Shown: in pieces, positions 2,523 through 32,947 of the stretch
Layout: every line of letters starts with the position of its first letter
Position numbering within the stretch: the stretch's first letter is position 1
DNA from: Chloroflexota bacterium
GTDB taxonomy: Bacteria > Chloroflexota > Limnocylindria > Limnocylindrales > CSP1-4
Reading direction: 5' to 3'
Assembly: GCA_003158295.1 (NCBI GenBank)
Contig: PMIP01000084.1
Span: forward strand, 117,571-156,829
DNA: 39,259 nucleotides
Notes under the pieces: generated by a model
Databases searched by the model: none
The model's input: only the letters and a program-made list of their open reading frames with translations
Told to the model about the DNA's origin: nothing
Program-made: the position numbers and the translations under genes

Positions 2523-3971
2523 CTACTCGGGCCGATACGCGGAATACAGTTCGGTCACGCGTTCGCTCTGAAACACGCCTGCCGCGACATCGCTGTACTT
2601 CCGCCCCATTCTCGTGAGTGCGTAGAAGTCTCCGTCTTGACTCTCTACCAGTCCGGCGTCCATCAAGGCTCCAAGTTCGGCCACAAAGTCAAAACTAGCC
2701 CCAAATACCCGCTCGTAGGAACCGATACTTATGCCTGGATCCAGCAAAGATAGTGTCAAGTGCTTGCGCCGCAATTCGTCTGGGCCTAATAGGAAGCCCG
2801 TATGCTGCGCGCTTCCAAAATCGGACTTGAGGAAGTCGCGAACTATGCCGCTGACAAGTCCGCTCTGTACCCTGTATGGAAGGCAGTAGTGCACGGATGG
2901 GGCATAACTCCGAGCCCCAGCGCCAAGCCCGAGAGTCGGAACGCCGGCGTATTCAAGCCTTTGCTGTTGGTACGTGGAACTATCGCTCTTCACGTACCGC
3001 ACGACGGTCTGACACGTGTATCCGGCTTCTTCCAAACGCATGCGGACGCGGTCGTACAAGGCGTACTTGTCCCGAGTCGACATCAGGCTGGATTGTGGCA
3101 GACGGCCGATGCCGGTCAGCTCCCTCACAGCCAGTGGGTAGATCGTGATGCACTCGGGCCCGAGCTCTGCGACCTGATCCAAGTTTCGCATTATCGATGA
3201 CTCGCTTTGACCCGGAAGACCGTAGATGAGATCGAGGTTCATCCTCAATCCAGCAGACCGAAGATTCTGGATGACCTCGTACACGTCCTTTGCCGAGTAA
3301 TGGCGATTAACGTGGTCTAGGTCTTCCTGGAAGAAACTCTGCACTCCGATGCTGACCCGATCGAAGCCAAGCCGCCGCAACTCTCTTATGTACTCTGGGC
3401 TCAATCTATCCGGGGAGCATTCGATGCATTCCTCAACATCTTCCTCCCTCGTCCCAAAGGCCTCGGTGAGCGCTTCCTGGATTCTCGCCAGCTGGTCAGA
3501 AGCAAGTACGTTTGGAGTTCCGCCGCCGTAGAAGAGCGACGTGACACGCGGGGCAGGTATGTACTCCCTGTAGTACTCGATCTGTCTTACCACTGCGTCA
3601 ACGTAGGCATCGAGCACGTGTCGCATTTCATGCGTTGGCACGGGATACGAGAACAAGTTGCAGAATGAGCACTTTCGCTCGCAGAAGGGTACGTGTACGT
3701 ACAGGTTCAGGTCCGTCACGCCCGCCCAAGTCGCCCGCATATCCATACTGACGAGCGGCCTGTAGGCACGCTTGTGCGGATAGGAGTGAACGTACCCAGG
3801 CCAGTAGCCACCGGCCATCTGGCTTCGTAACCGCTCGGCCAGTACCGTGCGGCGGTCGCTCTCGCTCGTCCCCTCTGGTGGCGCCATCACGCTCTTGGCG
3901 GGCGGCTGAGCGGTCGATGTCTCCGGCCCCCGGTGACCAGACGCGGTCGAATCGAGATGGCGGTTGGCCAC
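2523..3971 (-). CDS. HemW-like radical SAM protein
   Basis: A 482-aa radical SAM enzyme of the HemW/coproporphyrinogen-III-oxidase-like branch. The motif VHVPFCERKCSFCNLFS holds the CxxxCxxC triad that binds the 4Fe-4S cluster and SAM. Further family marks are FYGGGTPN, RVSIGVQSF and DLIYGLPGQ, followed by a C-terminal winged-helix-like domain ending in LTRMGRKYSDV. An N-terminal extension of about 90 residues (including YVHSYPHKRAYRPL) precedes the barrel; the same element recurs in the relic at 5928-6227, so it defines a local subfamily. GTG at 3971 is chosen because AAAGGGGGA lies 6 nt upstream; the ATG at 4004 has no ribosome site. HemW relatives act as haem chaperones or in methyl, ring-opening or cyclopropanation chemistry. 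Given the peptide genes and nucleoside enzymes nearby, a tailoring role is more likely than haem handling, but this is inference. Confidence 0.85.
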   Translation of the reverse strand: MANRHLDSTASGHRGPETSTAQPPAKSVMAPPEGTSESDRRTVLAERLRSQMAGGYWPGYVHSYPHKRAYRPLVSMDMRATWAGVTDLNLYVHVPFCERKCSFCNLFSYPVPTHEMRHVLDAYVDAVVRQIEYYREYIPAPRVTSLFYGGGTPNVLASDQLARIQEALTEAFGTREEDVEECIECSPDRLSPEYIRELRRLGFDRVSIGVQSFFQEDLDHVNRHYSAKDVYEVIQNLRSAGLRMNLDLIYGLPGQSESSIMRNLDQVAELGPECITIYPLAVRELTGIGRLPQSSLMSTRDKYALYDRVRMRLEEAGYTCQTVVRYVKSDSSTYQQQRLEYAGVPTLGLGAGARSYAPSVHYCLPYRVQSGLVSGIVRDFLKSDFGSAQHTGFLLGPDELRRKHLTLSLLDPGISIGSYERVFGASFDFVAELGALMDAGLVESQDGDFYALTRMGRKYSDVAAGVFQSERVTELYSAYRPE

Positions 3972-4288
3972 GTTGATTCCCCCTTTGGCAGCGGTTCGTC
4001 CCATCTGGATTCGCTGGATATAGTACGCTAGCTTCGCATGCGGCGGCTCGACGACGGCAGCACGAGGTGGGGAGTCGGGAATCTGCAGTCTGCCGCAACC
4101 CGTCGCGCGTGGAATCCGGCCGGCGCGTGAGCCTACGGGTTGGCATCTAGGACCGCCATCTCATCGCCATGGGCAATGTCGCACGGAGAGACTACGTGGT
4201 CTTGGCCGCAAGTGGGGCCGAGACCAGGTTGGCCGCAGCCGGCCGCCGACAACCTCGCTCCTGGTAATACGCGAGTCTGGAGGAAGGC
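3972..4288. promoter_or_regulatory. Divergent intergenic region
   Basis: These 317 bases separate the minus-strand HemW-like gene from the plus-strand nucleotidyltransferase gene and must hold both promoters. An AT-richer patch (TATAGTACG, about 4020-4028) could contain the minus-strand -10. I do not see a convincing -35 pair, inverted-repeat operator or small gene. Confidence 0.35.
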
Positions 4289-5927: not shown

Positions 5928-6227
5928 TCATCTCCCGCGAGGGCTAGCGACCGACATGGAGCCACGGAGGAGCTTGCGGTCCTTCAACAGTTGTCGGTAC
6001 CGAATATCAGCACGGATCTCACCGTGCCAGATGCGGTCGATTGTCCAGCGGGACGGCAGGCGGCGATATGCCGAGCGAACCGGATAGGCATATACGAACG
6101 GAGGGATGGCGCCGCTGTCGATGAGGCGAGCCATGCTCTGCTGTTGATCCCTCACGAGGCCCTCATTTCCCCTAGTTGCGCAGGAACGTCGGTCAGGTGG
6201 TGGCACCCATGCCGCGCCGGATGGCAA
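5928..6227 (-). pseudogene. N-terminal fragment of a HemW-like radical SAM gene
   Basis: A 99-codon frame whose residues about 32-75 (PPFVYAYPVRSAYRRL, then IDRIWHGEI) align with the N-terminal extension of the intact HemW-like protein (PGYVHSYPHKRAYRPL, then TWAGVTDL). Similarity ends just before the position where the intact enzyme has its CxxxCxxC cluster, and no radical SAM barrel follows. It lies directly downstream of the tiny peptide gene and hairpin on the same strand. That suggests the ancestral order was TldD, peptide, hairpin, radical SAM. It is most likely a dead fragment, though a short expressed protein cannot be excluded. Confidence 0.6.
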
Positions 6228-6259: not shown

Positions 6260-6288
6260 TGGTGCCCGGGCGCGATGCCCGGGCACCA
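6260..6288 (-). terminator. 12-bp perfect hairpin after peptide gene A
   Basis: The arms TGGTGCCCGGGC (6260-6271) and GCCCGGGCACCA (6277-6288) pair perfectly around a 5-nt loop. The hairpin begins 15 nt after the stop codon of the 18-codon gene. There is no U-tract on the minus-strand 3' side, so it is not a canonical intrinsic terminator. It may stabilise the 3' end of a short transcript or act as a processing or attenuation element. An unrelated sequence forms an equivalent 12-bp hairpin after peptide gene B, so structure rather than sequence is conserved. Confidence 0.7.
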
Positions 6289-6303: not shown

Positions 6304-6360
6304 CTAGACCCTCTTCATTGCGTGGGTCTCATCGGACTCTAGGTCCCAGTTTCGCAGCAT
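6304..6360 (-). CDS. 18-residue peptide gene A, putative precursor/scaffold peptide
   Basis: This 57-nt gene encodes MLRNWDLESDETHAMKRV, stop TAG. It was found by reading behind an exceptional ribosome site (AAGGAGGTGAT, 6368-6378). A second gene at 32265-32321 encodes MLRDWDLESDDNCGMKRQ: 12 identical residues and two conservative ones (N/D, E/D). L2, R3, D6, L7, E8 and D10 are all conserved with different codons, so selection acts on the peptide. Residues 11-14 vary (ETHA against DNCG) between a conserved N-terminal block and a conserved MKR. Both copies sit downstream of a TldD-family gene on the same strand and are followed by a 12-bp hairpin. TldD-family proteins process ribosomal peptides such as microcin B17, and PqqA/mycofactocin precursors are similarly tiny. 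I therefore infer a scaffold or precursor peptide; no named family is recognised. Confidence 0.8.
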   Translation of the reverse strand: MLRNWDLESDETHAMKRV

Positions 6361-6367: not shown

Positions 6368-6378
6368 ATCACCTCCTT
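6368..6378 (-). promoter_or_regulatory. Near-perfect Shine-Dalgarno for peptide A
   Basis: On the minus strand this reads AAGGAGGTGAT, complementary to essentially the entire anti-Shine-Dalgarno tail of 16S rRNA. It lies 7 nt before the ATG (11 nt from AGGAGG). It is stronger than the sites of most neighbouring genes and indicates high translation of the 18-codon gene. Confidence 0.8.
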
Positions 6379-6517
6379 TCCTCGGTATTGTCTCCGTGAC
6401 CTCAATCGATGGGTCGTGCCTGCGTGAGCGAGCTCAGTTCGGCCCCATCGATGCCGTCACCTCAGTCGCGACTCGGTCCAGCCGGCGCCGTCCATCGACG
6501 TCTCCATCCCGAGAGGA

Positions 6518-7204
6518 TCACATCGACACCTTCAGCGTGGAGAAGCAGAACGAGGGTGCACCGTCTGCGACGGGAATGTCCTGCCCTCGCTTTCGACAGA
6601 GTGTGTAGAACCACGTGAAATCGCTGCCGACTGCTACCAGATTGACGAATGCCGACGCGGCATCGAGCGCAATCACTCCGCCGCGACGGCTAGTGGTGCA
6701 GCGACCGTGCTCGATGTCCTGGCTCTCACGGATGCGCAGGACAACCCGTTCTGGCCGCGAGTTCACCTCACCGCTGGAAACCGAATGAACGAATACACCG
6801 TTGGGAATGTCGTTGAGGACACTGTCGGGGCCAACGTCCGAGGGTTCGGTTCGCAAGCGACCGAAGCGCGGAAGCGCCGGATCACGACGAGTAGCTCTGA
6901 TCCCGTGACCATCTGACTCCGCGCCTCGAACGACAGCGTGCCTCTTGGATAGGAGCTGCGCGACCGGGTGGCCGTTCACGAGAAGCGAGGTACTCAAGGC
7001 TGGCGAGCCCTCGTCGTCGATCTCGAAGCCTCCCCAACCCTTGTCGCCCGAAGCGCATTCCGTCACGCTCAGGCACTGCGGCGTAACCTGCTCTTGCGAC
7101 GCGAGCAGGCACGCGTGCTCTGCCTCGATCTGGCGGAGGACGGTGAGCCCTGCGTGTCGTTGGGCTGCGGAGATGCCCTGGAAGCCGGGAGCATCAATGT
7201 TCAT
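6518..7204 (-). CDS. TldD-family C-terminal half, lacking HExxxH
   Basis: A 228-aa product matching the C-terminal half of the intact TldD at 30477-31841 almost throughout: GWGGFEIDDEG against GWGAFQRDDEG, DPALPRFGRL against DPAIPRFGRL, and CRKRGQDIPVADGAPSF against CRKQGQDIPVADGAPSF. The first ~45 residues are unrelated, and the zinc motif HELVGH of the full copy is absent. The conserved C-terminal cysteine, a zinc ligand in TldD, remains. The ATG overlaps the stop of the aminotransferase gene (ATGA), so translation is probably coupled. It is either a truncated relic or a TldE-like partner without its own metal site. It ends 157 nt before peptide gene A on the same strand, mirroring the TldD-to-peptide order elsewhere in the window. 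Confidence 0.75.
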   Translation of the reverse strand: MNIDAPGFQGISAAQRHAGLTVLRQIEAEHACLLASQEQVTPQCLSVTECASGDKGWGGFEIDDEGSPALSTSLLVNGHPVAQLLSKRHAVVRGAESDGHGIRATRRDPALPRFGRLRTEPSDVGPDSVLNDIPNGVFVHSVSSGEVNSRPERVVLRIRESQDIEHGRCTTSRRGGVIALDAASAFVNLVAVGSDFTWFYTLCRKRGQDIPVADGAPSFCFSTLKVSM

Positions 7205-8466
7205 CGCTCGTTCCCCTCCGTGCGCAGGCTCATTCCTTCACCGCCGCTCGTCCAACTGCGCAGCGCCCTGGCGAACGCCCTTCCGAGTCGGTCCCAGTCG
7301 AGGTCGGCCTGGTCGAGGCACACGAACGAAGGGTGGCCCTGAAGGAGCAGTACCCCTTCGTCAGCCATGACGCGAGCCAGCGCCTGTCGCCGTCCAGCTT
7401 GACCGAGCAGTTCATCTGCGAACGTCAGGTCGAACATCGATCCCCCAAGCACCTGCACGGCCTGGACGCAGCCGGCAATCCCCTCGCTCCGGGCCGCGTC
7501 GTTGAAGGTCGAAACGACCCGATCACCGACGTCGGCGAGAACTTCGTACCCGGACCGCTCTGACATCACCTGGGCGGTAGCCATCGCCGCGTACGGACCG
7601 AACAGCTCTTTGCAGTGGGTGCCGCTAATCGCGGCGGCGGGATACAGGCTCATGATCTCGCGCGATCCCACGAGAAGGCTCAGCGGCGCTCCGTTCGAGA
7701 TGGCCTTGCCGAGGACCGTCATGTCGGCCCGCGGCAACCCCTCCTTGGCGAACACGCCCCTCGGAGCGACGCGACCTGCAGTCTTGGTCTCGTCGGCGAC
7801 TACGAGGATACCCTGGCTCCGGCACATCTCAACGGCGGCGGCAAACCGGTCCCGCGCTGCATGGTGGAACTGGTAGGTATCGATCACGAGGCATGCGTAG
7901 TCGTTTCCACGACCCTCGAGTTCCTTCGCGAGCGATCCGAGTTCCAGGTCCACCCAGTTGAACACGCGCTCGCTGCCGCTCACGCCGCGGAAGTGCCCCT
8001 CGAACCTGACCTCTCCCCTGAGCGGGGAGGTCAGCTGCTCGTGCCAGCGCGGCGTCTTCGCGATGAGCGCGTCATGCCACCCTATGTACCCGCAGCGGAT
8101 CACGCCGAAACGGTCCGTTCTGTGCGTCGCAAGGCGGATGGCGGCCGTGATGGCGTCCGATGAGTGCTTGAAAAAGCCAACCACCTCGTCGAACTCCGGA
8201 TCGGCGACGGACATCGCTAGGCGCTCATGCGTCGCAGCGTAGCCGGGGAGATGCAGTGGACCGACCAGGTGCGATGCGAGTAGCTGCTGGAAACGGGAGT
8301 TCCGATGACCGATGACGACGGGTCCTGATCCGAGGACGAAGTCGACGTAGGTCCTGCCCTCGCTGTCCTCGACCTTCCCGCCGAACCCATCGACGAAATG
8401 GATCTCCTCGCCATTCGAGCGGAAGAAGCGGCACACGGACGATGACGCGACCCGAGCGCCGTTCAT
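7201..8466 (-). CDS. Class-III PLP aminotransferase / aminomutase-like
   Basis: A 421-aa fold-type I PLP enzyme close to glutamate-1-semialdehyde aminomutase and class-III aminotransferases. Visible marks are a start resembling DSEGRTYVDFVLGSGPVVIGH, VVADETKTAGR (Asp225 for the pyridine nitrogen), and the Schiff-base lysine in VLGKAISNG (Lys254). The family moves an amino group between a keto compound and an amino donor, or within one substrate. The ATG at 8466 overlaps the stop of the Nudix gene (ATGA), and its own stop overlaps the next start, so it sits inside a coupled operon. The substrate is not readable. An amino-sugar, amino-acid side chain or keto-nucleoside intermediate would fit the neighbourhood, but that is inference. 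Confidence 0.88.
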   Translation of the reverse strand: MNGARVASSSVCRFFRSNGEEIHFVDGFGGKVEDSEGRTYVDFVLGSGPVVIGHRNSRFQQLLASHLVGPLHLPGYAATHERLAMSVADPEFDEVVGFFKHSSDAITAAIRLATHRTDRFGVIRCGYIGWHDALIAKTPRWHEQLTSPLRGEVRFEGHFRGVSGSERVFNWVDLELGSLAKELEGRGNDYACLVIDTYQFHHAARDRFAAAVEMCRSQGILVVADETKTAGRVAPRGVFAKEGLPRADMTVLGKAISNGAPLSLLVGSREIMSLYPAAAISGTHCKELFGPYAAMATAQVMSERSGYEVLADVGDRVVSTFNDAARSEGIAGCVQAVQVLGGSMFDLTFADELLGQAGRRQALARVMADEGVLLLQGHPSFVCLDQADLDWDRLGRAFARALRSWTSGGEGMSLRTEGNER

Positions 8467-9071
8467 GACAATGCCCCGACAGCTGGCGGCTGTCCCGCGA
8501 GGCCAAGGGCCCGCGAGACCCAGGCCCATCGTGCCGAGAGCGCGCCGTGTGCGGCGCGCGCCGAAGGACTCAAGTCGCGACGATCAACCTCGTCAAGACG
8601 GAGGCGCACATAGCCGAGATTCCGCTCCGGCTCGTGGACGATGGGGTCCCCGTTCCCCAGCAGTGCCAGGTAGGAGACGATGATCCAGTCCTGGCGTCCG
8701 CACCGCCCGCTCTCGTTCAGCACGCAATCGAAACGAACCTCGAAGAAACCCTTCACCACGAAGCTCACGCCGCCAGCCTCCTCCCGAATCTCCCGAGAAA
8801 GCGCGTCGCGGAGCGACGCGTCTCCGGCCTCGACCATCCCACCGATTCCTTCGAGCTTCCCCACTCCGTCACGACTCGCCTCCCCCCGCCGCATGAGGAT
8901 CCACCGCCCGAACTCATCGAACAGCAGTGCCTCGACCGCGATTTGGAACTGCCGTCCAGCGAGCTCCGTGTCGGCGAACGCGAATAGATCGCGTATAGAC
9001 CGTGGCTCAGACTCGCTCAGGGTTGAGGGAATGGCGGCGCACATCCCATGGTCGTCGGGCGGATTCTCCAT
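8463..9071 (-). CDS. Nudix hydrolase (copy 1)
   Basis: A 202-aa protein with a Nudix box at GGMVEAGDASLRDALSREIREEAGG, residues about 75-99. The catalytic REIREE is intact, while the first conserved Glu of the box is Asp. Nudix enzymes cleave nucleoside diphosphates linked to another moiety, releasing a nucleoside monophosphate. The start at 9071 lies 5 nt after the stop of the OMP decarboxylase gene; the 3' end overlaps the aminotransferase start. In this cluster it could remove pyrophosphate from a nucleotide intermediate or clean up toxic nucleotides. A second, different Nudix gene lies at 14399-14932. Confidence 0.88.
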   Translation of the reverse strand: MENPPDDHGMCAAIPSTLSESEPRSIRDLFAFADTELAGRQFQIAVEALLFDEFGRWILMRRGEASRDGVGKLEGIGGMVEAGDASLRDALSREIREEAGGVSFVVKGFFEVRFDCVLNESGRCGRQDWIIVSYLALLGNGDPIVHEPERNLGYVRLRLDEVDRRDLSPSARAAHGALSARWAWVSRALGLAGQPPAVGALS

Positions 9072-9076: not shown

Positions 9077-9931
9077 TCAGATCACCGCTGTCCAGGCTTC
9101 GCTACGGAACCGCTCCACGATCTCCCGGAGCGATGCCACGTCCGGACCATGCCGGAGAATGCCACGGGAGATCGGGAGTATGACCTCGCCCGGCCGTCTT
9201 CGAAGGGACTGGTGGAGCGACGCGAAGGTCGCCCCCTGGGCCCCAATGCCCGGAGCGAGGATGGGGCAACCATCGAGCAGCTCGATGACCTCATGAGCCC
9301 TTTGGCCGCATGTGGCGCCCACGACCGCACCCGCGGCACCGGAACCAATCGTTGCGGGCCGGGAGCGATTGTAGTCAGCGATTTCGAGGGCAAGACGCTC
9401 GGCCACCGTGTGGCCGTCCTCGCATCGGGATGACTGGAGCGCGATGCCCTCGGGGTTTGACGACATCACGACCACGAACACGCAGGCTCCAAGGCGCGTA
9501 GCGAGATCGAGCACAGGCGTAACGGTTCCGAAGCCCAGATACGCGCAGACGGTCATCCCGTCGGCACCGTAGCCGTCCTCGTCCAGGAACGCGTGACCGT
9601 ACGCCTCCATGGTCGAGCCAATATCTCCACGCTTGCAGTCCATCACCACCATCGTCCCGGTCGATCGGCAGCGATCGGTGATCTCCCGCAGCACCGCCAT
9701 CCCCGGAGGGCCGAAACGCTCGAAGAAGCCGACCTGTGGCTTCACTACCGCGATGCGATCGCCGACGGCATCGAGGACGATGTTGCAGGCCCGGCGAAGG
9801 CCCTCAGGGGTCGTGGGCAGGCCCCAGGATGCAAGCATCTCGTACGACGGATCCAGACCGACCGCCAGAGGGCTCCTGTCGGGAACCAGGCGAGCCAGCC
9901 GATCGCGGAAGGTGAGATCAGGCAATGTCAT
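9077..9931 (-). CDS. pyrF: Orotidine 5'-phosphate decarboxylase, type 2
   Basis: A 284-aa OMP decarboxylase of the mycobacterial-type (type 2) subfamily, which converts OMP to UMP. It shows LAVGLDPS near the N-terminus, the catalytic loop VVMDCKRGDIGSTMEAYG with its Lys/Asp set, VMSSNPEG, VVGATCGQ, and the phosphate-binding LAPGIGAQG. The length is normal for this subfamily. ATG 9931 lies 14 nt inside the end of the upstream archaeal-type decarboxylase gene, so the two are translationally linked. Two different OMPDC subfamilies side by side are unusual. One may have shifted to another phosphorylated substrate, as in the hexulose-phosphate synthase and KGPDC branches of the suprafamily. This copy keeps all the usual motifs. 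Confidence 0.9.
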   Translation of the reverse strand: MTLPDLTFRDRLARLVPDRSPLAVGLDPSYEMLASWGLPTTPEGLRRACNIVLDAVGDRIAVVKPQVGFFERFGPPGMAVLREITDRCRSTGTMVVMDCKRGDIGSTMEAYGHAFLDEDGYGADGMTVCAYLGFGTVTPVLDLATRLGACVFVVVMSSNPEGIALQSSRCEDGHTVAERLALEIADYNRSRPATIGSGAAGAVVGATCGQRAHEVIELLDGCPILAPGIGAQGATFASLHQSLRRRPGEVILPISRGILRHGPDVASLREIVERFRSEAWTAVI

Positions 9932-10604
9932 GGGTATCTCCCGGGGTGCTGGAGGCGAGGATCTGGTAAATCGCCCGGACGGGATCCGCGGCTTCGTAGA
10001 TTGAGCGCCCGATGATTGCGTACGTGCCGCCTGATGCGAGAACCGTGCCATAGGTGCCACCCTGGGCGCCCACGCCACAGCACACGACGGTCATCTCCGG
10101 CCCCACGACGCCACGAATTGCGCGGATGCGATCTGGACGGTTGCCGGGCGCTTGGACGCCATAGACGCCGATCTCGCGTGCAAGCCGCGCCATGTCCTCT
10201 GCGATGGGCTGCGTAAACATCGCACCCCCGGGGTTGGTTAGTTCAAGCTGCACGATGATGCCGATCTGGTCGCGTGCCGCCTCCATGCAATCCTCGAGCG
10301 CGTCTGGGCCCACGAACCCGTGAACCATCACCGCGGCCCCGCCGAATCTTCGGACGAGATCGACAATTCTCGCATCCGTGTGCGGCACGTCCGCCACCTT
10401 GAGATCAGCGAATACGGGCTTGTGGCTCCGATCGGCGACGGCGCGTATCGCTCGCGCCCCTTCCCTATAAACCAGCGGGCTGGCGATCTTGATAACGTCA
10501 ACGTGGTCGGCGACGCGATCAATGAGAGACAGGTTGTCATCGAGGGTCGGCAGGTCGGCCGCAAGGATGATGGATGTCTTTCTAGAGCCGAAATATGGCT
10601 GCAT
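9918..10604 (-). CDS. Archaeal-type OMP decarboxylase-like protein
   Basis: A 228-aa OMPDC-suprafamily barrel of the short archaeal type. It opens with SIILAADLPTLDD, carries the catalytic FADLKVADVPHTD (the D-x-K-x-x-D pattern), VMVHGFVG, LTNPGGAMF, QAPGNRPDRI, and the phosphate site CCGVGAQGG with IIGRSIYEA. These match archaeal pyrF rather than KGPDC or hexulose-phosphate synthase. ATG 10604 is preferred because GAGGT lies 5 nt upstream (7 nt after the preceding gene); ATG 10631 would overlap that gene. Its 3' end overlaps the type-2 OMPDC start by 14 nt. It could act on OMP or on an orotidylate-like carboxylated nucleotide of the pathway. The decarboxylase family call is firm; the substrate is inferred. 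Confidence 0.85.
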   Translation of the reverse strand: MQPYFGSRKTSIILAADLPTLDDNLSLIDRVADHVDVIKIASPLVYREGARAIRAVADRSHKPVFADLKVADVPHTDARIVDLVRRFGGAAVMVHGFVGPDALEDCMEAARDQIGIIVQLELTNPGGAMFTQPIAEDMARLAREIGVYGVQAPGNRPDRIRAIRGVVGPEMTVVCCGVGAQGGTYGTVLASGGTYAIIGRSIYEAADPVRAIYQILASSTPGDTHDIA

Positions 10605-10611
10605 CAGTACC

Positions 10612-10908
10612 TCATCGCGATTCGCTGGCAACTGTCTCCGCTAGGTTGGCGATTTCGCTGATTGCTGACTCAACGCTGTCAACGCGAGACATCGAGAACG
10701 TTCCGTCGCCACGCAGGATCAGCAAACCTCTATCGCGACGCGCCAACAGCGCGCCTCGATCCGCCATCTCTACGACGCGGTAGCCCATCTCGCCCAGCCG
10801 GTCTCGAGCTCGGTCGAGCGAGACCGAGAACAGGACCCCCTCGATCTGTACTAGCCCATCCTGCTCAGCGCACGGCACAACCTCACGGACAACGAAAGCG
10901 CGGCCCAT
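10612..10908 (-). CDS. 98-aa protein of unknown function
   Basis: A small acidic/basic mixed protein that I do not recognise. It has no signal peptide, membrane segment or metal-binding cysteine cluster (one Cys only). The C-terminal half alternates strand, turn and helix: ARRDRGLLILRGDGTFSMSR then SVESAISEIANLAETV, a small alpha/beta module similar in feel to TBP-like or ACT-like half-domains. It begins 3 nt after the cysteine desulfurase stop and ends 7 nt before the archaeal-type OMPDC start, so it is locked into the operon. A substrate-binding or partner protein for the sulfur or radical enzymes is possible but unproven. Confidence 0.7.
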   Translation of the reverse strand: MGRAFVVREVVPCAEQDGLVQIEGVLFSVSLDRARDRLGEMGYRVVEMADRGALLARRDRGLLILRGDGTFSMSRVDSVESAISEIANLAETVASESR

Positions 10909-10911: not shown

Positions 10912-12033
10912 CTACCCGACGGCCGTGAGCGCACCCGCGAAGTCGCGGATGGCTGCAGCCGCGTCATCGATGTTGGCCGACGTGTTGAAGCGCCCAATGC
11001 TCAGTCGCAGCGTGCCTGCCCGCAGTCCGAGCTGGTCGTGGTGGACGGGCGAGCAGTGGAGCCCGCCGCGAACGATGATCCCCGCCGCTCGCAGAAACGG
11101 CACCCAATCCGCCTCGGGATCGGACCGCTGCGTCGCCATTGCCACGATGCCGGTTCGCCGATCGCCCGGCGGCCTGCCCAACAAAGTGAGTCCCGGCATC
11201 CCTTCGAGGGCAGCCCAGAGCTGCTCCTGAAGGGTTGCCACTGCCGATGCATAAGCCGCTGAGTGCGCGGCCCAGTCCTCCAGCGCCGCGACCATCGCCG
11301 CGATCGCAGGGCTGTTCGGGGTGCCAACTTCCATGAAATGGCTGCCATCGTCATCACGGAGGAGCCGAGACCTTCTTCCAGTGCCACCCGTGAGCAGCGG
11401 ACGCAGGGGACGTTTCGCCACGAGGATCGCTGCACCGGGCACGGAGCACAGGTGCTTATGTGCCGGGAAGACCACGAAGTCAGCCTCGATGGCCTGGGAC
11501 AGGTCGATGCAGCCGGCTGACTGAGCGGCATCTACGAGCACTGCCACGTCAGGGAACCGGCGGCGTAGATCTACGAGGACGGATCCGAGGTCGTAGACGG
11601 ACCCGCTGACGTTGCTCACGTGCGTGAGGCAGACTAGGCGGGTCCTGGGTGTAATGAGTCGTAGCAGCCTATTCGGATCGGTGCGCTCGTCGGGGTCATG
11701 TAACTCCGCGATGGCATAGACGACACCAGCCAGAGCGTCGACTGTCCGAAGCACAGCATTGTGCGGGCGATTATCGAGGATGCACGTGTCCCCGGGACGC
11801 AGGTACCCCCGGAGGACGGCATTCAGGCCGAACGTAGCGTCGGGCACGAAGAACAGAAACGCGGCATCGGTTCCCACCGCCGCAGCCGCTCGTTGCCTAT
11901 AGAGCCAAATGTCGCTGGCCTCATCGGGAAAGTTCCGAACATCCGCGGGGGGACGTCGCGCGGCTTCGTCGAACGCTGCTAACGCCACCTCCGATCTGGG
12001 GAAGGCGGTGGTGGCGTTGTTGAGGTATATCAA
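10912..12033 (-). CDS. Cysteine desulfurase-like class-V PLP enzyme
   Basis: A 373-aa class-V aminotransferase-fold enzyme. It starts with YLNNATTAFP (family YLDNAATT), has the PLP aspartate in VLVDAAQSAG, the lysine in FPAHKHL (about Lys193), and a catalytic-loop cysteine in VRGGLHCSPVHHDQLG (about Cys327). GTLRLSIGRFNT follows, as in the stand-alone cysteine desulfurase family rather than IscS. It should release sulfur from cysteine as persulfide, or act as a lyase. No ATG fits: the TTG at 12033 overlaps the radical SAM stop (TTGA) and has GGAGGT 5 nt upstream, which settles the start. The tight pairing with a radical SAM enzyme suggests sulfur or amino-group delivery in a shared step. The desulfurase role is inferred from motifs. 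Confidence 0.85.
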   Translation of the reverse strand: MIYLNNATTAFPRSEVALAAFDEAARRPPADVRNFPDEASDIWLYRQRAAAAVGTDAAFLFFVPDATFGLNAVLRGYLRPGDTCILDNRPHNAVLRTVDALAGVVYAIAELHDPDERTDPNRLLRLITPRTRLVCLTHVSNVSGSVYDLGSVLVDLRRRFPDVAVLVDAAQSAGCIDLSQAIEADFVVFPAHKHLCSVPGAAILVAKRPLRPLLTGGTGRRSRLLRDDDGSHFMEVGTPNSPAIAAMVAALEDWAAHSAAYASAVATLQEQLWAALEGMPGLTLLGRPPGDRRTGIVAMATQRSDPEADWVPFLRAAGIIVRGGLHCSPVHHDQLGLRAGTLRLSIGRFNTSANIDDAAAAIRDFAGALTAVG

Positions 12034-12968
12034 CGCGCACCTCCGACTTCGCGGGCTTCCGGCGATCCACCATCCTCGCCCTCGCAGTCTCGGCACGAAA
12101 CGCACAAGGCGGGATACTCCCGCCAGATCCTTGGGAGCGGGAAGCGATCGCGAGTCACGGCGGTGACGCAGACGGACGTATGGAAAACCGAGATTCCGCC
12201 CGTACCGCTTTCGAGAGCCTCCACGAATTGGCGGCAGAGGGCGTCGATTCCCCCCGAGCGGAGGTTGGCATGTATGGGATGGCGGTACGGCCGTCCCTCA
12301 TCTGGCACTGACGTGTATTTCATTCCGACGCATGCGGCGTTCGGTCGCGATTGAGCGACGAGTTCAAGGAAAAGAGGCAGGTCCCGGTAAGTGAGGGAGG
12401 TAAACGGCTTGATGTAGATGCAGGAGAAAAGCCCTGCCTCCCGGCAGCTTTCGAAGTTGCCAGCACGTAGCGCCACTGACGCCGCGTGGGGCTCGATCAG
12501 GGATGCCCGTGAGACTGTGGTTATCGACGTGAAGTTGACCACTTGGTGTTTCCACGACGAGAGTCGACCGATGAGGTCCAGCATCTCGGGCGGGATGGCC
12601 TCTTTGGTCGAGATCTGGACCGGGTTGCCCAGCGGCAGAACTTGACCGAGGATGGTCGCGATCAGATGGATTGACTGCTTCGTTCTGTACGGTTCGGTGC
12701 CCGGACACAGCGACAGGACTGTCCCGTGTTTCCCTAACTCAAACAGGGGGTGCGCGAGGAGGAATTCGAGCGACTCGCAGGCCTGACGTTCGGAGATCAA
12801 GACCTGCGGGCCCCCTGGATCGACGATGTAGCAGTATCGGCATCCGCAGCCGCACCCCCTCGTCGTGATGTTGACGAACGCGCGACCTGGTTCGTTGGTA
12901 CCCTCGCGGTCGTGAAACGCCACGTTCGCAGGAAGCGCGGGCATAAGTACGCGCGACAGTTCCCGCAT
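12030..12968 (-). CDS. Radical SAM protein, cysteine-rich
   Basis: A 312-aa radical SAM protein. The motif TRGCGCGCRYCYIVD gives CxxxCxxC from Cys39, Cys43 and Cys46, with an extra Cys41. Near the C-terminus CVSCRDCEG forms a second possible Fe-S site, so an auxiliary cluster is plausible, as in SPASM/Twitch-type peptide-modifying enzymes, although the spacing is not classic. The strand motif LSLCPGTEPY replaces the usual GGEP. ATG 12968 is chosen for the GGGGGGA tract 10 nt upstream; a longer start at 13043 lacks one. It is the first gene of the minus-strand operon, and its stop overlaps the TTG of the desulfurase gene. Its substrate is unknown; peptide or nucleoside modification are both reasonable. 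Confidence 0.85.
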   Translation of the reverse strand: MRELSRVLMPALPANVAFHDREGTNEPGRAFVNITTRGCGCGCRYCYIVDPGGPQVLISERQACESLEFLLAHPLFELGKHGTVLSLCPGTEPYRTKQSIHLIATILGQVLPLGNPVQISTKEAIPPEMLDLIGRLSSWKHQVVNFTSITTVSRASLIEPHAASVALRAGNFESCREAGLFSCIYIKPFTSLTYRDLPLFLELVAQSRPNAACVGMKYTSVPDEGRPYRHPIHANLRSGGIDALCRQFVEALESGTGGISVFHTSVCVTAVTRDRFPLPRIWREYPALCVSCRDCEGEDGGSPEAREVGGAR

Positions 12969-13295
12969 CAAGTCTGGGTCCCCCCTCACGGATCTACACC
13001 GCACACAACTCGTCGGTGATACGTCCCGCCGTCGGAGCAGCACCGAAGCGCATCATATCCGATCCACCGGGCGTCTTGCCCGCCGCGCGATCGACGAGCC
13101 CGATGGGGGTATGACGTCAGCCTGGCAGAGCGAATCGCGCCCAGGATGCCGGACTCCGCTTCCGCGGGACGGGGGCGTGGTCTCTCCGCGATCCTGGAGG
13201 GGGTGGGCCACGCGTTTGCCTCCTGGCCCCGGTCTAGTGGATCATTGGATCGGGCACGGTCTAGTCCGTGCAGGGAGAGCCCCACTCAACGGTTG
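12969..13295. promoter_or_regulatory. Divergent intergenic region
   Basis: These 327 bases lie between the first gene of the minus-strand operon and the plus-strand kinase at 13296. They must contain the operon promoter. Frames running through here lack family character. I see no clear -35/-10 pair or operator. Confidence 0.35.
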
Positions 13296-21017: not shown

Positions 21018-22141
21018 CCAAGACTAGGGCGAGCTGGGCGCTTGGATCGCGAGGTGACAGTGAGTGGCTGAGTCGCCGCCCTGGAACCTATGCCTCCGCC
21101 GGTGTGGACCGTGAGGCCGGAGGGGAGGCGGTAACTCGGATTGCCGAGTTGGCGCGTGCGACTTTCGGTTCGTCCGTCGCGACCGAGATCGGAGGTTTCG
21201 CCGGGGCGTACGCCTGGGAGGCTGTTGGCCCAGGGGGTCCTTATCTCGTGGCCTCGACCGACGGGGTCGGAACCAAGGCGCAGATCGCCTCTGCCGTTGG
21301 ACGCTACGACACCATCGGGCTGGACCTGGTCGCGATGAACGTGGACGACATCGTGGTGTACGGAGCACGGCCGCTTTTTTTCCTAGACTTCGTAATGACT
21401 GGGGCGGTCGATCCCGGCCAGGTCGAGGATATCGTCCGAGGAGTCGCTAACGGATGCAAGCAGGTCGGCTGCGCACTCCTCGGTGGGGAGGTCGCCGAGC
21501 ACCCGGGGACGATGGGTCGCGGGGAGTTCGACCTCGTCGGCTTCGTCGTGGGTTCGGTCGATCGGAAGGAACTCATCACTGGGACCTCTATTAGGCCAGG
21601 GGACCGCGTCATAGGACTGACCGCGCCCGGGCTGCGGAGCGACGGGTACTCTTTCGTACGAAAGATCTTCGCAGATCGCTCACTCAACGAACCAGCCTAC
21701 CCAGACGCCGACCACTCGCTCGGTGACGAACTCCTTCGGCCATCAGCGATCCTAACTCCCATGGTGCTGGACCTACTGCGGGCAGTCGACGTACATGGGT
21801 TGGCCCATGTCACCGGTGGGGGTATCGCAGCGAACGCTGCTCGCATCCTCCCTCCGGATTGCGACCTCGTGTTGCACCGCGGCTCCTGGCCCGTACCGCC
21901 CATCTTTGTCGAAATGCGCCGTTCACGGGGCATTACGACGCGGGCCATGGAGGACGCGTTCGGCCTCGGCATTGGGATGGTGGTCGTGGTCCCCCCAGAG
22001 GCCGAGGAGCAGGCGCTGCAGATCCTTGCCCGGGGAGCGGTGCCAACTCCAACTCTGACCATCGGCGAGGTCACACCGGGGAGTGGGCGTGCGGCGTTCG
22101 CCGGTGCGTCTCAAGAGGTCTTTTGGCGTGAGAAGCTATGA
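21014..22141 (+). CDS. purM: AIR synthetase (PurM, canonical copy)
   Basis: A 375-aa phosphoribosylformylglycinamidine cyclo-ligase, producing 5-aminoimidazole ribotide from FGAM and ATP. TYASAGVDREAGGEAVTRI is the family start, LVASTDGVGTKAQIA the catalytic loop, DLVAMNVDDIVVYGARPLFFLD the dimer helix, GCALLGGEVAEHPG the signature, and LTAPGLRSDGYSFVRKI and HVTGGGIAANAARILP the ATP and substrate segments. All key elements are present, in contrast to the divergent PurM at 17911. Its start overlaps the transketolase stop and its stop overlaps the HprK-like start. A dedicated AIR supply fits a purine-derived nucleoside pathway. Confidence 0.93.
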   Translation: MTKTRASWALGSRGDSEWLSRRPGTYASAGVDREAGGEAVTRIAELARATFGSSVATEIGGFAGAYAWEAVGPGGPYLVASTDGVGTKAQIASAVGRYDTIGLDLVAMNVDDIVVYGARPLFFLDFVMTGAVDPGQVEDIVRGVANGCKQVGCALLGGEVAEHPGTMGRGEFDLVGFVVGSVDRKELITGTSIRPGDRVIGLTAPGLRSDGYSFVRKIFADRSLNEPAYPDADHSLGDELLRPSAILTPMVLDLLRAVDVHGLAHVTGGGIAANAARILPPDCDLVLHRGSWPVPPIFVEMRRSRGITTRAMEDAFGLGIGMVVVVPPEAEEQALQILARGAVPTPTLTIGEVTPGSGRAAFAGASQEVFWREKL

Positions 22142-23301
22142 GGACGCCACCCGTTACGGAATTTGAGGCTGCCGGTGGCCTTGTTCGCGTACAGCTCGAA
22201 GGCTGTCACGCGACCATTGCCGCAGGCACCGAGGCCATAGCCAACTGGGCATTGAGCTACCTGGGAAGTTGGTGGCCAGAGACGGAGCGGATCGCCATCG
22301 GCCAGACGGCCGATCGAGTGGATGCGGTTGTGACCGGCTGCGTAGACCCAGAGGGCTACCGTCAGGTAGTCTCATTCGTCGCGGCGGACGCAGAGCCGAC
22401 AACAACTTTCATCCGGGTACCTGGCTTCAGGCGGATCGTTGACGGCGTCGTCTACGCGCACTGCCCGGAGCGCCGCGTGGCCTATGTGCACAATCCTGTT
22501 GACGGGACGATCAGGGTCGTCGGTCCCGATGAATCGCAGGTGAAGCTGGATACTGCGCGGATTGCCCGTATGCTCGTGACCAACGAACTTGAGCAGCGGG
22601 GATGGGTCGTACTACATGCCGCGTGCGTGATCGGGCCCGAGGGCGGTGTTCTAGTCATCGGGAACAAGGGCGCGGGCAAGACAACACTGAGCCTCATCCT
22701 TTCCAGTCTGGGCACGAGGGCGCTGCTCGCCAACGATCGCTGTCTTGTCCGCACTGACGGTAACGTGGTGCAGGCACTGCCCTGGCCGGGTTCCGTATCG
22801 ATCGGTTTTGGCCTGCTGACCGGGCTCGGTTGGGCGGAGTTGGCCGCTCGATCGATTCGGAACGGTGCAGAGCAACACCCCTTTCAGCACTCGGACGTTG
22901 CTGCTCTGCTTGCGGCTGGCTCGTTCACGCCACGTTTCGGGGAGGACGGACGGGAGCTCAAGTTTGAAGTCATGGTGCCGCAACTGGCGGAGTGTTTTGG
23001 GATCGACGTAGCAACCGAAGGAAAGATCGGCCGAGTGTACTTTCCTCAGATCACTTCGCAGGCCCCTCGAGGTCCGGCGCGGTCGGTGCGGCAACACGAG
23101 TCCTTCACCGAGCATGTCTTGTTCGGCCCTGCGAGCGGCTATCCAAACTTCCTCGAGCTCACCCCGGTGCTGCCACCAGAGCAGCGGGCCGCAACTGCAG
23201 AGCTGCTCAGAGCATTAGGGGACCTGCCAGCGTACGAAGTGGCTCTCTCCCTGGATGCCGCCCGTAACCGCAGCGCGTTGAGCGGTGGCTGGCCCGACTG
23301 A
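22138..23301 (+). CDS. HprK-like kinase with novel N-terminal domain
   Basis: A 387-aa protein. The central part, about residues 155-260, resembles HPr kinase/phosphorylase: WVVLHAACVIGPEGGVLVIGNKGAGKTTLSL holds the P-loop (about residues 173-182), followed by LLANDRCLV. In HprK-related proteins of peptide clusters this fold phosphorylates a protein or peptide serine, and some tail lasso peptides. The first ~150 residues and the C-terminal ~120 are not recognised. ATG 22138 overlaps the PurM stop. Phosphorylation of the 18-residue peptides (each has one serine, in the conserved ESD) is an attractive but untested role. Sugar kinase activity is the main alternative. Confidence 0.72.
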   Translation: MRTPPVTEFEAAGGLVRVQLEGCHATIAAGTEAIANWALSYLGSWWPETERIAIGQTADRVDAVVTGCVDPEGYRQVVSFVAADAEPTTTFIRVPGFRRIVDGVVYAHCPERRVAYVHNPVDGTIRVVGPDESQVKLDTARIARMLVTNELEQRGWVVLHAACVIGPEGGVLVIGNKGAGKTTLSLILSSLGTRALLANDRCLVRTDGNVVQALPWPGSVSIGFGLLTGLGWAELAARSIRNGAEQHPFQHSDVAALLAAGSFTPRFGEDGRELKFEVMVPQLAECFGIDVATEGKIGRVYFPQITSQAPRGPARSVRQHESFTEHVLFGPASGYPNFLELTPVLPPEQRAATAELLRALGDLPAYEVALSLDAARNRSALSGGWPD

Positions 23302-24183
23302 TGCGCGTGAGGAGTCAGCGTAACGGAAGTGTGCCTCCTGAATGGCCGGCTCGGGCCGCTGAGGGGATCTCGACGGCGTAGCCCAGAGCCTCGAGGCGTC
23401 GGACCGATCTGCGGCGAACGTGCTCGCGGTGGCGCTGGTCGAAGCAGTTGGGCCCGAGGTCCTCGAAGCTCGCGCCGCGGCTGAGCAGCTGATAGCTCCA
23501 GATATGCATCTTGCCGATCGGCTGGCACGGCGCATCCGGCCGTCCTATAAGACCAGCGGCCTCCGCCGATGAGCTCGCACGAGGGCCCCTGGCCCCAGGT
23601 GCTGGAGCCAAGTCCGGCACGTCAGCGCAAGAACTCCCGCTGACTACGGGTTGATTGTCGCTAGGGCGGTCAGTATGCCCCTCCCGGCCTGGGTCGGCTC
23701 CTAGGTACACCGGCCCGCCGCCTTTGTTTGGGCGCCGTTCGCGGGTCCTCGTGCTGCCCTCGCCATGCCTGTGGCGTGTTGCTTGGCATCGAGTTCAGGC
23801 GAGTCTGCACATACGGCATGCGTCGACGACCGACGCCCGTTATGCTCGCTGCGCACCCGTTGCGGTTGCGCCCGAAGGAGGAGGGATGGTTCGGAGACCG
23901 GAAGCGACGACGGTTGGCTGACATCCTTCGCGAGCGGCTTCTCCATCCGGGTTGCCATTCGGGCGAGGGTCCCAGGGCCCACGGTGAGGGACGGCGTGGT
24001 CGTGTCAGAGTCGTGGAGGCTGGCGCCACAGACATCCGACCAACATGACCGAGGGGTGACGATGGTGGCCACGAACGTTGCATCCGAGCCCTTTGCTGGA
24101 GAGCTGGCCTTGTTCAGTAGCTGAGCGACGGCGCAGTCGACTTGACGAATTCATGGCGAGTATTGAGGCGGGGGACAGGACGA
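23302..24183. other. Intergenic decay region
   Basis: Apart from the transposase fragment noted separately, these ~880 bases hold no credible gene. Frames on both strands are low-complexity in character and match nothing. The region separates the sugar-phosphate/PurM operon from the HisG-led gene set. The segment just before 24184 (AGGACGA) carries the ribosome site of the hisG-like gene. Confidence 0.45.
23366..23515 (-). mobile_element. Remnant of IS110-type transposase C-terminus
   Basis: About 50 codons on the minus strand read HIWSYQLLSRGASFEDLGP and then RSVRRLEALGYAVEI. This resembles the end of IS110-family transposases, where a short helix is followed by a DLGxDYFxxR-type stretch and a terminal RLxxLGYxVxL. 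The catalytic domains and the ends of the element are absent. It is a footprint of past insertion, consistent with the broken genes in this locus. Confidence 0.5.
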
Positions 24184-24864
24184 ATGGGCGAGTCAATCGT
24201 GGCCGAACCAGCGGGCGGACCCAGGGGCGCGCCTGAGGACTTGTTGGTGCTGGGACTGCCCAAAGGGCGGTTCATGTCTCAATCGATAGCGGTCGCTCAA
24301 TCACTTGGTGTCGCACGTGACCAGCATCCGGCTCGTCGCGTGTCGTTCAACACAACATTTGAAACGTGCCGTCTTGCTGTCAAACTGCTGAAGATTCAGG
24401 ACATCGCGACCCTTCTTCGGGATGGGCAGCTCGACTTCGGTGTTTGTTCTGACGAATGGATGAACGAGGCGTACGTCTCGCTTCCTGAGCTCGTTGATCT
24501 CAGATGGTGTCTGACGCAGGTGGTCTACGCAGCGCCCCGCTCGGGAATCCCCGCCGCAGCCGGAGGAACTGTGCGGATTGCCACGCCCTATCCGAACCTT
24601 GCGCGTTCTTTCCTCGCGAAACGGGGGAGGTCGTACCACATTCAACCGGTACTGGGGTGCCCGGAAGCCCTCGTACCTGAAGTGTGTGATGCGGTGATCG
24701 ACTGCGTCGAAACAGGCCGGAGTCTCGAAGACAACGAATTGATTGCTCAGGACACGCTTCTCGTGTCGTCCATTCGGCTCTATGCACAGCGGCGACACCA
24801 GGGGACTCCAGTCGCGACTGGGCTCGCGGCCCTGCTCTCCAGCCACGTCGCCACGAACCAGTAG
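24184..24864 (+). CDS. HisG-like ATP phosphoribosyltransferase (PenA-type candidate)
   Basis: A 226-aa short-form HisG homologue, joining ATP and PRPP to give N1-(5-phosphoribosyl)-ATP. LLVLGLPKGRFMSQSI is the N-terminal signature, FGVCSDEWMNEA replaces the usual GITGxD segment, and IATPYPNLARSFL with DAVIDCVETGRSLEDNELI is the PRPP/ATP-binding signature. It lacks a regulatory C-terminal domain, and no HisZ or other his gene is nearby. In pentostatin and coformycin biosynthesis the first enzyme (PenA) is a HisG homologue working with a SAICAR-synthetase homologue (PenC) and an SDR (PenB). Both other families occur at 32948 and 33723, so a PenA-like role is inferred. ATG 24184 has AGGA 7 nt ahead. 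Confidence 0.87.
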   Translation: MGESIVAEPAGGPRGAPEDLLVLGLPKGRFMSQSIAVAQSLGVARDQHPARRVSFNTTFETCRLAVKLLKIQDIATLLRDGQLDFGVCSDEWMNEAYVSLPELVDLRWCLTQVVYAAPRSGIPAAAGGTVRIATPYPNLARSFLAKRGRSYHIQPVLGCPEALVPEVCDAVIDCVETGRSLEDNELIAQDTLLVSSIRLYAQRRHQGTPVATGLAALLSSHVATNQ

Positions 24865-27933: not shown

Positions 27934-27945
27934 GAGTTGGTGGTC

Positions 27946-28473
27946 ATGGGTTGGAACCCTGCGGGTCTGTCACCTGTTGGATTTGGAGGCTGGGAAGCCG
28001 GTGGAGGCAGAACTTGGGGCGCGAACGCAAGCCGAGACGACGTTATCGGCGCGATGCTTGCCGCGTTTGACGCAGGTGTGAACTGGGTGGACACAGCTGC
28101 CGTCTATGGAGCCGGGGGCGGATCCGAGACGATCGTGGGCGAGGCCATCGCTGACCGCCGCGCCCTCCTCGTTTCGACCGAGGTTGCGCCGGAGCCGCTG
28201 GCTCGCTTTCGGAAGGACGGGCTCGTCTGGTCGATCGAGGAATCGCCACGGCGCATCGGCCGTTCGTCGGTGGACCTCTATGTCCTGCACTGGTCCGAGC
28301 CATCCGTGCCAATAGAACATACCTGGCAGGGTGTTCCACCCGACTCTCACCCGATCAGAGTATGGATTGAGGGGGGCGTGAGGATCGCAGCCGGAAGTGA
28401 CCACCCCCTCGCCTTAGGCACTGACCTGCACTCAGAGGTCGAGATCACTAGACGTCTCGTCGCGGACGCGTGA
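27946..28473 (+). pseudogene. Chimera: truncated aldo/keto reductase plus amidohydrolase fragment
   Basis: Residues 1 to about 125 are an aldo/keto reductase N-terminal half: SPVGFGGWEAGGG, NWVDTAAVYGAGGGSE (Asp/Tyr of the active site) and SSVDLYVLHWSEPS (His). The catalytic lysine position (normally TK in the third strand) is TE in LLVSTEVAP. The barrel then stops, and residues about 135-175 instead read IRVWIEGGVRIAAGSDHPLALGTDL, a piece typical of amidohydrolase barrels (GVRVALGSDxP). Neither half is complete. It is best seen as the product of a deletion joining two genes. ATG 27946 follows GGAG 9 nt upstream, and its stop overlaps the next start, so it may still be translated. Confidence 0.65.
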
Positions 28474-29492
28474 TGACCGGGCCGTCTCCCAACACGAGCC
28501 TGTCCCCTCCCTTGCAGTCGCCGATGCTGCACCCGCCTCGCATCAACCTCGCACCGTTATCAGGACGGGAGTGCGGACTCGTGGCTGCTTACAGCCACCG
28601 CGTTGGACTGGTAGGAAACGCGATGGCAGTGACGAAGGGCAAGTCGAGGCGGACGTATCGCCTTGAAACGGACGGCGGGACGTACGCCATCAAACGAGGC
28701 TCGGTGGGCCAGATCCAAGCCGAGTACGTCGTGATACGAGCGCTTGCCGAGCATGGTTTTGGGAGCGTGCCGGCTATACGAGCGCCGGTGATCGAGTTTG
28801 CGCGGCAGCAATGGGTCGCCTACGAGTGGGTCGAGGGGCCATCTGCGAAGCCGGAAGGAGGGGCAGCACTCGTGCCGCCGGCCATCTCTCTGTCTTTGGG
28901 CAGAGCCACTGCGGCTTTGCACAGCGCATTTGGCCGAGTCACGTTCGCTCCCGACATGATCCCGAATGTATCCAAGCGGGCGGCCCAGCTGGCACGGTCT
29001 CTGAGCGTCACCGAGGGGGTATCGCCGCAGATACGTCCGTTGCTGCTTGATGCATCACACAGGGTGCAAGGCGCTCTGGCGCGAGGCCGCTTCACGAGGG
29101 ATCGGCTCGTGCATGGCGATATCCGCTTTGGAAACATCGTTTTCGACGAGACGGGGGCTGTCAAGGCGTTTCTTGACTTCGAAAAAGTGGCATGGGCGAC
29201 TCCCTTCATTGATCTGGCCGTGGGCGTCCGAAACCTCTATTCGATCGAGCAGGCGCCGGTCTGCTCATTGCCTCTCGATCTCTCAAACGCGCTCGTGTTT
29301 CTGGATGGCTACGAGCCGAGCCTCGCCGAAATCGTCGACCGCACTTCCTGGCGCTGTCTCCAAGAGGAGCTCGTACTGGCCGCAGCCTACGAACTGCTCT
29401 TTGTGCTTCAGTACCCTTTTCTGGATCCAACGCGAGCCGTGATGCTTCGAGCGGTCGCAGAAGCGCAGCTGGAATGGGCGGTCGGTTTGTGA
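28473..29492 (+). CDS. Aminoglycoside phosphotransferase-family (APH) kinase
   Basis: A 339-aa protein-kinase-like small-molecule kinase. The ATP lysine is in TYAIKRG, the brackets of the catalytic loop are LVHGDIRFGNIVF (H-G-D-x4-N), and the metal aspartate is in AFLDFEKVAW. The C-terminal half is helical as in APH and choline-kinase-type enzymes. It would phosphorylate a hydroxyl of a small molecule: a nucleoside, sugar, amino alcohol or an antibiotic (self-protection). The start overlaps the preceding stop (TGATG). The N-terminal ~30 residues are proline-rich and may lie outside the fold. It is followed by a HAD phosphatase gene coupled by GTGA. A kinase-phosphatase pair is common where an inactive phosphorylated precursor is made and then activated. 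Confidence 0.85.
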   Translation: MTGPSPNTSLSPPLQSPMLHPPRINLAPLSGRECGLVAAYSHRVGLVGNAMAVTKGKSRRTYRLETDGGTYAIKRGSVGQIQAEYVVIRALAEHGFGSVPAIRAPVIEFARQQWVAYEWVEGPSAKPEGGAALVPPAISLSLGRATAALHSAFGRVTFAPDMIPNVSKRAAQLARSLSVTEGVSPQIRPLLLDASHRVQGALARGRFTRDRLVHGDIRFGNIVFDETGAVKAFLDFEKVAWATPFIDLAVGVRNLYSIEQAPVCSLPLDLSNALVFLDGYEPSLAEIVDRTSWRCLQEELVLAAAYELLFVLQYPFLDPTRAVMLRAVAEAQLEWAVGL

Positions 29493-30440
29493 GCCCGAGT
29501 CGTGATGCCCGTCGCCGGCAGAGGCCGGGACTCGCCGCTCGCGAGCCCACAGGAGGTGTGGTCGCCATTGATCTCGACGGAACGCTCCTGCCGGGCCCTA
29601 GCGTGTTGCGACTCCTGGCGTCCGAGCTGGGAGCAAGCTGTCTCGTCGACCGCCTGGAGCGGGACTTCTCCGCGGGCACGATTGGCAATGAGCGGGTCGC
29701 CGACCTTACGGCAGCACTCTTCCGTGGAGCGCGACTGCGCCATATAGAGGGCGTGCTTGCGGCCGCCCAGTGGTTGCCGGGCATCTCCGACGCGGTGGAG
29801 CGCCTCGGCCAGACAGGCTGCCGGACACTGCTCGCGACGGTCACCTGGTCGTTCGCGGCAGAGATCGTCGCATGCCGTTTCGGTTTTGACGGCTGCTGCG
29901 GGACACGAATGAACAATGTGCATGGACGACTGACCGGGACGGTAGAGTCTTACTTCCGCCCGCCTGACAAAGGCAGCCTATGCCCTGGAGGAGTGCCGCC
30001 TCTTGGGCCTTTCCCGCAGGCACCTCATCGCGATCGGCGACTCGCGCAGCGACTTCGACCTGTTCCGCATGTCAGGACTATCGATCGCAATCAACGGGAC
30101 GCCGGAGGCTATCAATGAGGCCGACGTGTCGATTGACGTTCGCGACCTCCGCGAAGTCGTGCCGGTGGCGGTGGCTTACTCGAATCGATCGACTCCTCCT
30201 CCTGACGACGAGGCTAGGACTCCCGAATTCGGCGCGACAAGCGAGCTCGTCGCCAAATGCGACCTGCGCGCTTCGCGACGCGCGGGTCTTCGCCGGCGGC
30301 GGGATCGAACCATGTGTTGGGCGAAAGTGGCGAGATGTCCATGCAGGCGCTCGGTGAGCTCTACGGCAGCAGACGAGCGCTTCGGCCAGAATGACCTTCG
30401 CGGTCCCTCAAATACCACGGAACTCTGGCTACCTCATTGA
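29489..30440 (+). pseudogene. Frameshifted HAD phosphatase (SerB-like)
   Basis: The first frame gives VVAIDLDGTLLPGPSVLRLL (HAD motif I, DxDGT), followed by a cap region and LLATVTWSFAAEIVA (motif II region), down to ESYFRPPDK at about 29970. The next frame resumes AAYALEECRLLGLSRRHLIAIGDSRSDFDLFRMSG (motif IV, GDSxxD) and ends the fold near 30170. Reading AAG instead of AAAG at about 29969-29972 restores one protein (DKAAYALEE), so a single-base insertion in an A-run explains it. This could be a recent mutation or a sequencing error. GTG 29489 overlaps the APH kinase stop (GTGA). If the frame is corrected, a small phosphatase for a nucleotide or phosphorylated intermediate results. The frame beyond 30180 has no recognisable content. 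Confidence 0.75.
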
Positions 30441-30476
30441 ACGAACGGACGTTTGGTAAGATACCTCCGCTCTCGA

Positions 30477-32248: not shown

Positions 32249-32250
32249 AG

Positions 32251-32258: not shown

Positions 32259-32264
32259 GTCTAG

Positions 32265-32946: not shown

Positions 32947-32947
32947 T

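Follow-up and report, generated by a model that had tools for sequence, protein, structure and literature searches.

Two related 18-residue peptide genes, each located behind a TldD-family gene, in an apparent nucleoside-type gene cluster of a Chloroflexota bacterium

Two short genes, referred to as peptide genes A and B, are located on opposite strands of a 39,259-nucleotide stretch of DNA (the window), which forms the end of a contig in the 2.72 Mb draft genome (85% complete) of a Chloroflexota bacterium. Both frames follow a GGAGGTG ribosome site, bear a mark of selection on their amino acids and are followed by stable hairpins (Table 1). Each stands behind a TldD-family gene, and a PF19289 search of the genome detected just these two genes of the family. 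As judged from the protein families encoded around them, the neighbourhood looks like a nucleoside-type biosynthetic cluster. By analogy with known TldD systems, we consider it somewhat probable that a RiPP-like, TldD-processed branch of this cluster uses A and B as its precursor or scaffold peptides. Finding a TldD-peptide pair combined with nucleoside-type chemistry was unexpected.

Table 1. Features of the window around peptide genes A and B (positions count from the first nucleotide of the window).
Feature	Position	Strand	Remarks
STM4012/HemN-like radical SAM protein, complete	2523-4004	-	paralogue of the 5928-6185 fragment
STM4012/HemN-like radical SAM protein, truncated N-terminus	5928-6185	-	ends before CxxxCxxC; about 118 nt behind peptide A
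Hairpin behind A, GC-rich	6261-6287	-	16 nt past the stop; z -4.34; no T tract
Peptide gene A, MLRNWDLESDETHAMKRV	6304-6360	-	18 codons + TAG
Shine-Dalgarno of A, AAAGGAGGTGA	6369-6379	-
TldD-A	6518-7204	-	TldD-family protein, C-terminal half only (PF19289 positions 42-219); lacks HExxxH
Class III aminotransferase	7201-8529	-	stop overlaps the start of the following TldD-A by 4 nt
NUDIX hydrolase	8463-9071	-
Two OMP-decarboxylase-family genes	9077-10631	-	ORFs 9077-10078 and 9918-10631
Class V aminotransferase and radical-SAM-like protein	10912-13043	-	CxxxCxxC, no Pfam match (radical-SAM-like protein)
HisG-family protein	24142-24864	+	as PenA
TldD-B	30453-31841	+	full-length TldD-family protein with HELVGH
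Shine-Dalgarno of B, GAGGAGGTGG	32250-32259	+
Peptide gene B, MLRDWDLESDDNCGMKRQ	32265-32321	+	stop TAA
Hairpin behind B, GC-rich	32330-32365	+	8 nt past the stop; z -3.89; no T tract
SAICAR-synthetase-family protein	32804-33721	+	as PenC
Short-chain dehydrogenase (SDR)	33621-34412	+	as PenB

Peptide gene A had been noticed in a sequence-only reading of the window as an 18-residue frame starting 157 nt after a TldD-family gene, and its positions hold. The near-perfect Shine-Dalgarno sequence ascribed to it is present, but is located at 6369-6379, one base off the 6368-6378 given there. The second copy reported in that reading was recovered as peptide gene B, 423 nt past TldD-B: 12 of the 18 residues are identical in A and B, six of them being encoded by differing codons. 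The identical positions form the blocks M-L-R-x-W-D-L-E-S-D and M-K-R and include a charged and aromatic block shared by the two copies, while residues 11-14 and 18 differ, the C-terminal residue being either V or Q. Neither peptide contains more than one Cys or a core rich in Ser, Cys and Thr. Labelling the copies as paralogues is fair, because TldD-A and TldD-B are 61% identical over 185 residues. A frame overlapping the start of peptide B (31838-32272) matches no family and is probably non-coding.

The likeness of the two copies is confined to the genes themselves: nucleotide identity amounts to 65-75% from the Shine-Dalgarno sequence to the stop (-20 to +57), and to 5-40% in all other 20-nt blocks within 200 nt on either side. 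If the 17 observed substitutions are placed randomly, at least 12 identical residues are retained in 0.2% of the trials (P about 0.002), and when 18-codon ATG frames of the window, a pool including A and B themselves, are paired at random in register, at least 12 identities are reached in about 5 of 300,000 cases. Among the 27 short frames in the window led by a Shine-Dalgarno sequence, A and B are the only matching pair, and the pattern of a Shine-Dalgarno sequence, ATG, three codons and W-D-[LF]-[DE]-x-[DE] occurs at these two places, against none expected by chance. Third-position changes account for 9 of the 17 substitutions (p = 0.075), which is weak when taken alone, and the synonymous divergence is saturated, so that dN/dS is not calculable. 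Since the codon-position statistics are weak, the argument is built upon the identity test and on the contrast with the flanks; on these grounds the frames behave as selected peptides, as the sequence-only reading had proposed, and we regard the inference of selection as sound. It is hardly credible that the frames are not expressed and resemble each other by chance or as leftovers of a duplication: some neighbours indeed look truncated (TldD-A, the radical SAM fragment and an aldo-keto reductase), but the flanks have diverged to randomness while frame and ribosome site have not, and the retained identity is improbable given the substitutions.

Of the two TldD-family proteins, TldD-B combines the HExxxH metal motif with the C-terminal domain PF19289, as expected of a TldD protease. 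Its C-terminal half matches the solved E. coli-type TldD, and the alignment to its best relatives in the phylum (about 30% identity) covers most of the N-terminal half as well; a structure prediction from a two-row alignment was set aside (mean pLDDT 33). TldD-A, which amounts to half of the protein and carries no catalytic motif, may serve as a non-catalytic partner, in the way that TldE serves TldD (PMC10885120), or be a remnant. Several RiPP pathways, such as those of microcin B17, klebsazolicin and a Yersinia microcin C analogue, rely on TldD-family enzymes for peptide processing (PMC10885120), and a TldD/E-like enzyme frees the product from the C-terminus of the scaffold peptide in the biosynthesis of ammosamide, one of the pearlins (PMC12424672). 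Because enzymes of this family act on ribosomal peptides elsewhere, the 18-mers would by analogy most likely be precursors or scaffolds. Each peptide would be made from its strong ribosome site, its conserved blocks would be read by enzymes of the cluster, and residues 11-14 and 18 would carry the modification or the differences in product. The adjoining TldD-family protein may then trim or cleave the modified peptide, with TldD-B as the catalytic subunit and TldD-A as a possible shortened partner or remnant. In favour of this precursor reading are the island of conservation with synonymous change, the fact that each peptide follows one of the two TldD-family genes and that no third such gene was detected, the radical SAM fragment after peptide A with its complete paralogue nearby, and the presence of exporter genes; TldD-A, being incomplete and devoid of the motif, counts against it. 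Alternatively, the substrate of the TldD-family proteins may be a small-molecule intermediate of the nucleoside pathway, with the peptides playing an unrelated role. The LmbIH/LmbQ proteins of the PmbA_TldD superfamily are indeed present in lincosamide antibiotic clusters (PMC4351081), N-deacetylases are counted within the TldD protein family in a review cited in PMC10885120, and the rest of the cluster represents small-molecule chemistry. We nevertheless regard this alternative as very unlikely, since it leaves two peptides directly behind both TldD genes unexplained.

The combination of a short gene conserved as amino acids with an adjoining peptide-protease gene, as expected of RiPP precursors in general, is present here. 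Set against the precursor reading, none of the hallmark enzymes of the known TldD-using RiPP classes turned up. In the 85% complete genome, searches for YcaO gave no match (control matched in 5), no ThiF protein (MccB-type adenylyltransferase) exceeded the cut-off (control matched in 14 of 14), and the PqqD-type leader-binding domain was not matched (control matched in 5), fused or divergent domains being able to escape this search. A genome search for Lant_dehydr_N/PEARL (truncated lantibiotic dehydratase, PF04738) was negative, yet its control was equally silent, and no PEARL ligase was present among the Pfam-scanned proteins of the window. Two radical-SAM-type proteins are encoded there, and nothing ties either of them to the peptides. 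The missing set of recognized modifying enzymes, the strict pairing with TldD and the charged and aromatic block kept in both copies would also fit an unmodified microprotein, serving as binding partner, inhibitor or specificity factor of TldD or another cluster enzyme, or as a secreted signal. We consider this unlikely, as peptides are the best-known targets of TldD-family proteins and the variable positions 11-14 amid conserved blocks resemble a variable core more than a binding surface.

The closest known systems resemble the loci described here in some respects and differ in others. In gene content, the pearlins, represented by ammosamide with AmmA and the TldD/E-like Amm12/13, likewise place a ribosomal peptide and a TldD-family gene inside a small-molecule cluster (PMC12424672). 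Pearlin systems use a TldD/E heterodimer or an M50 protease; here TldD-B is complete, and the search revealed no family member besides it other than the half-length TldD-A. In contrast, pearlin clusters encode a PEARL ligase, which had no match here (with a silent control), and the chemistry here is nucleoside-like. Microcin C-type peptide-nucleotide antibiotics combine a tiny precursor with nucleotide chemistry and, in the Yersinia version, with TldD/E processing (PMC10885120 and its reference 134), but no ThiF-family protein exceeded the cut-off here and the C-terminal residue is not conserved. The microcin B17 and klebsazolicin systems share a TldD-family protease with HExxxH, as in TldD-B, but differ by their YcaO proteins and by a Ser-, Cys- and Thr-rich core.

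The GC-rich hairpins behind the two stops are both very stable, and their sequences are unrelated to each other. Because T tracts are absent from both, they are named hairpins and should not be regarded as proven terminators; a terminator scan returned no terminator-like site at copy A. A short frame with a strong ribosome site and a strong hairpin right past the stop in both copies, followed by further genes on the same strand (6185-5928 behind A, 32620 onward behind B), could also be interpreted as a leader or nascent-chain arrest peptide controlling the downstream genes, with the hairpin as attenuator and the TldD genes as incidental neighbours. This appears distinctly unlikely, as neither hairpin has a T tract, the next candidate starts are roughly 75-130 nt (A) and 250 nt (B) away from the hairpins, the gene behind A is merely a truncated fragment, and conservation is seen in amino acids rather than in codon runs. 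Scanning the window for Rfam families and tRNAs gave no match.

The surrounding genes, beginning with an IMPDH-family gene at 536 and closing with an ABC exporter set whose end is near 37793, encode nucleotide- and sugar-type enzymes. In addition to the proteins listed in Table 1, they include three nucleotide-kinase-like proteins, FBPase- and aldolase-family proteins, a transketolase, two AIR-synthase-family proteins, MazG, APH and HAD proteins. The HisG, SDR and SAICAR-synthetase trio of pentostatin/coformycin-type clusters, which contain these families together as PenA, PenB and PenC (PMC12648386), is present as well at the level of protein families. In contrast to the window, the cluster descriptions consulted name neither a TldD protease nor a peptide, and many extra enzymes are encoded here. 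The IMPDH-family gene at the cluster edge (536-1840, + strand) possibly lacks CBS domains and could be a self-resistance copy. The aldo-keto reductase and HAD frames (27937-28473 and 29474-30118, + strand) look shorter than their relatives, owing to either decay or assembly error. Three of the features treated here had not been part of the sequence-only reading, namely the cluster of nucleoside type that surrounds A and B, the half-length TldD next to A and the hairpins.

Parts of the cluster recur on plasmids. Agrobacterium tumefaciens plasmid pAt1 (13391-22954) encodes counterparts of seven proteins from the half around peptide A in a similar order (35-62% identity), namely a kinase, both OMP-decarboxylase-family proteins, the NUDIX hydrolase, the class III and V aminotransferases and the radical-SAM-like protein. 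This seven-gene sub-cluster, related to the 8-14 kb region of the window, is annotated as dTMP kinase, two pyrF, NUDIX, aminotransferases and a hypothetical protein, the latter being the radical-SAM-like one. Apart from this match on one Agrobacterium plasmid, the radical-SAM-like protein had none in viral contigs, phages or 177 genomes of the class. From the half around peptide B, the AIR synthase, MazG, HisG, a 230-residue protein, the aldo-keto reductase and the HAD protein are found again on a plasmid of Streptomyces anulatus; Nocardia and Leptospira plasmids contain fewer of them. The module of HisG, MazG and the 230-residue protein is common to Streptomyces, Nocardia and Leptospira plasmids, accompanied by AIR-synthase, aldolase/FBPase or aldo-keto reductase, and looks like an undescribed nucleotide-type pathway. 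An HPr-kinase-like protein (22138-23301, + strand) has all its plasmid relatives in Streptomyces, in a conserved trio with NAD(P)-binding and hypothetical proteins; this lead was dropped, as no TldD occurs there. The Agrobacterium, Streptomyces, Nocardia and Leptospira plasmid stretches contain neither a TldD match nor a matching short frame, which argues against the precursor reading to some extent and suggests that TldD and peptide were added to a chemistry running elsewhere without them.

The peptides match no named family in NCBIfam or in a literature text search, in agreement with the sequence-only reading, which had gone further in speaking of a peptide family and in recommending a search for the peptide pattern near TldD genes of other genomes. 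The association with TldD is true for both copies, but was not found in any other genome searched, and the supposed family is reduced to a pair in one genome, which again counts against the precursor reading. No further copy was detected in the contigs of 84,980 species with one exact DNA pattern (GGAGG, ATG, three codons and W-D-[LF]-E-x-[DE]), which diverged members could escape, in a collection that may omit records very near the source genome. The same applies to genomes of the same genus, 201 relatives, as many as 400 genomes from the phylum, viral contigs and plasmids, and no matching peptide was present at the loci of TldD-B relatives in the phylum or in six larger regions. Pattern matches in 11 stretches of viral contigs and 5 stretches of genome contigs belonged mostly to long unrelated proteins, and two short matching frames (22 and 37 residues) had only the searched motif in common with the peptides; the 22-residue one, MVVIWDLEEDEKCVDENKCKVK from a viral contig, has a good ribosome site and is probably a chance match. 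A profile search of the phylum with both peptides yielded six weak matches beyond the own genome, without a comparable short frame and none near relatives of the genes in the window.

Peptides A and B look genuine, although they are known from a single genome, and the negative searches matter because this type of peptide has so far been seen only there. Standard annotation and RiPP miners are expected to miss an 18-residue frame without the usual hallmark enzymes nearby. We infer a link of the peptides to the nucleoside chemistry from their cluster context. If they belong to that pathway, they would represent a ribosomal peptide used as a handle for making or delivering nucleoside compounds, and would also provide a cluster-dedicated TldD-family protease with a concrete substrate open to testing. 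More specifically, and only as a tentative, rather doubtful proposal, the 18-residue peptide may be the scaffold or amino acid source for a part of the nucleoside-type product, freed by the dedicated TldD without a known RiPP ligase; if true, this would join the RiPP and pentostatin-type worlds within one cluster.
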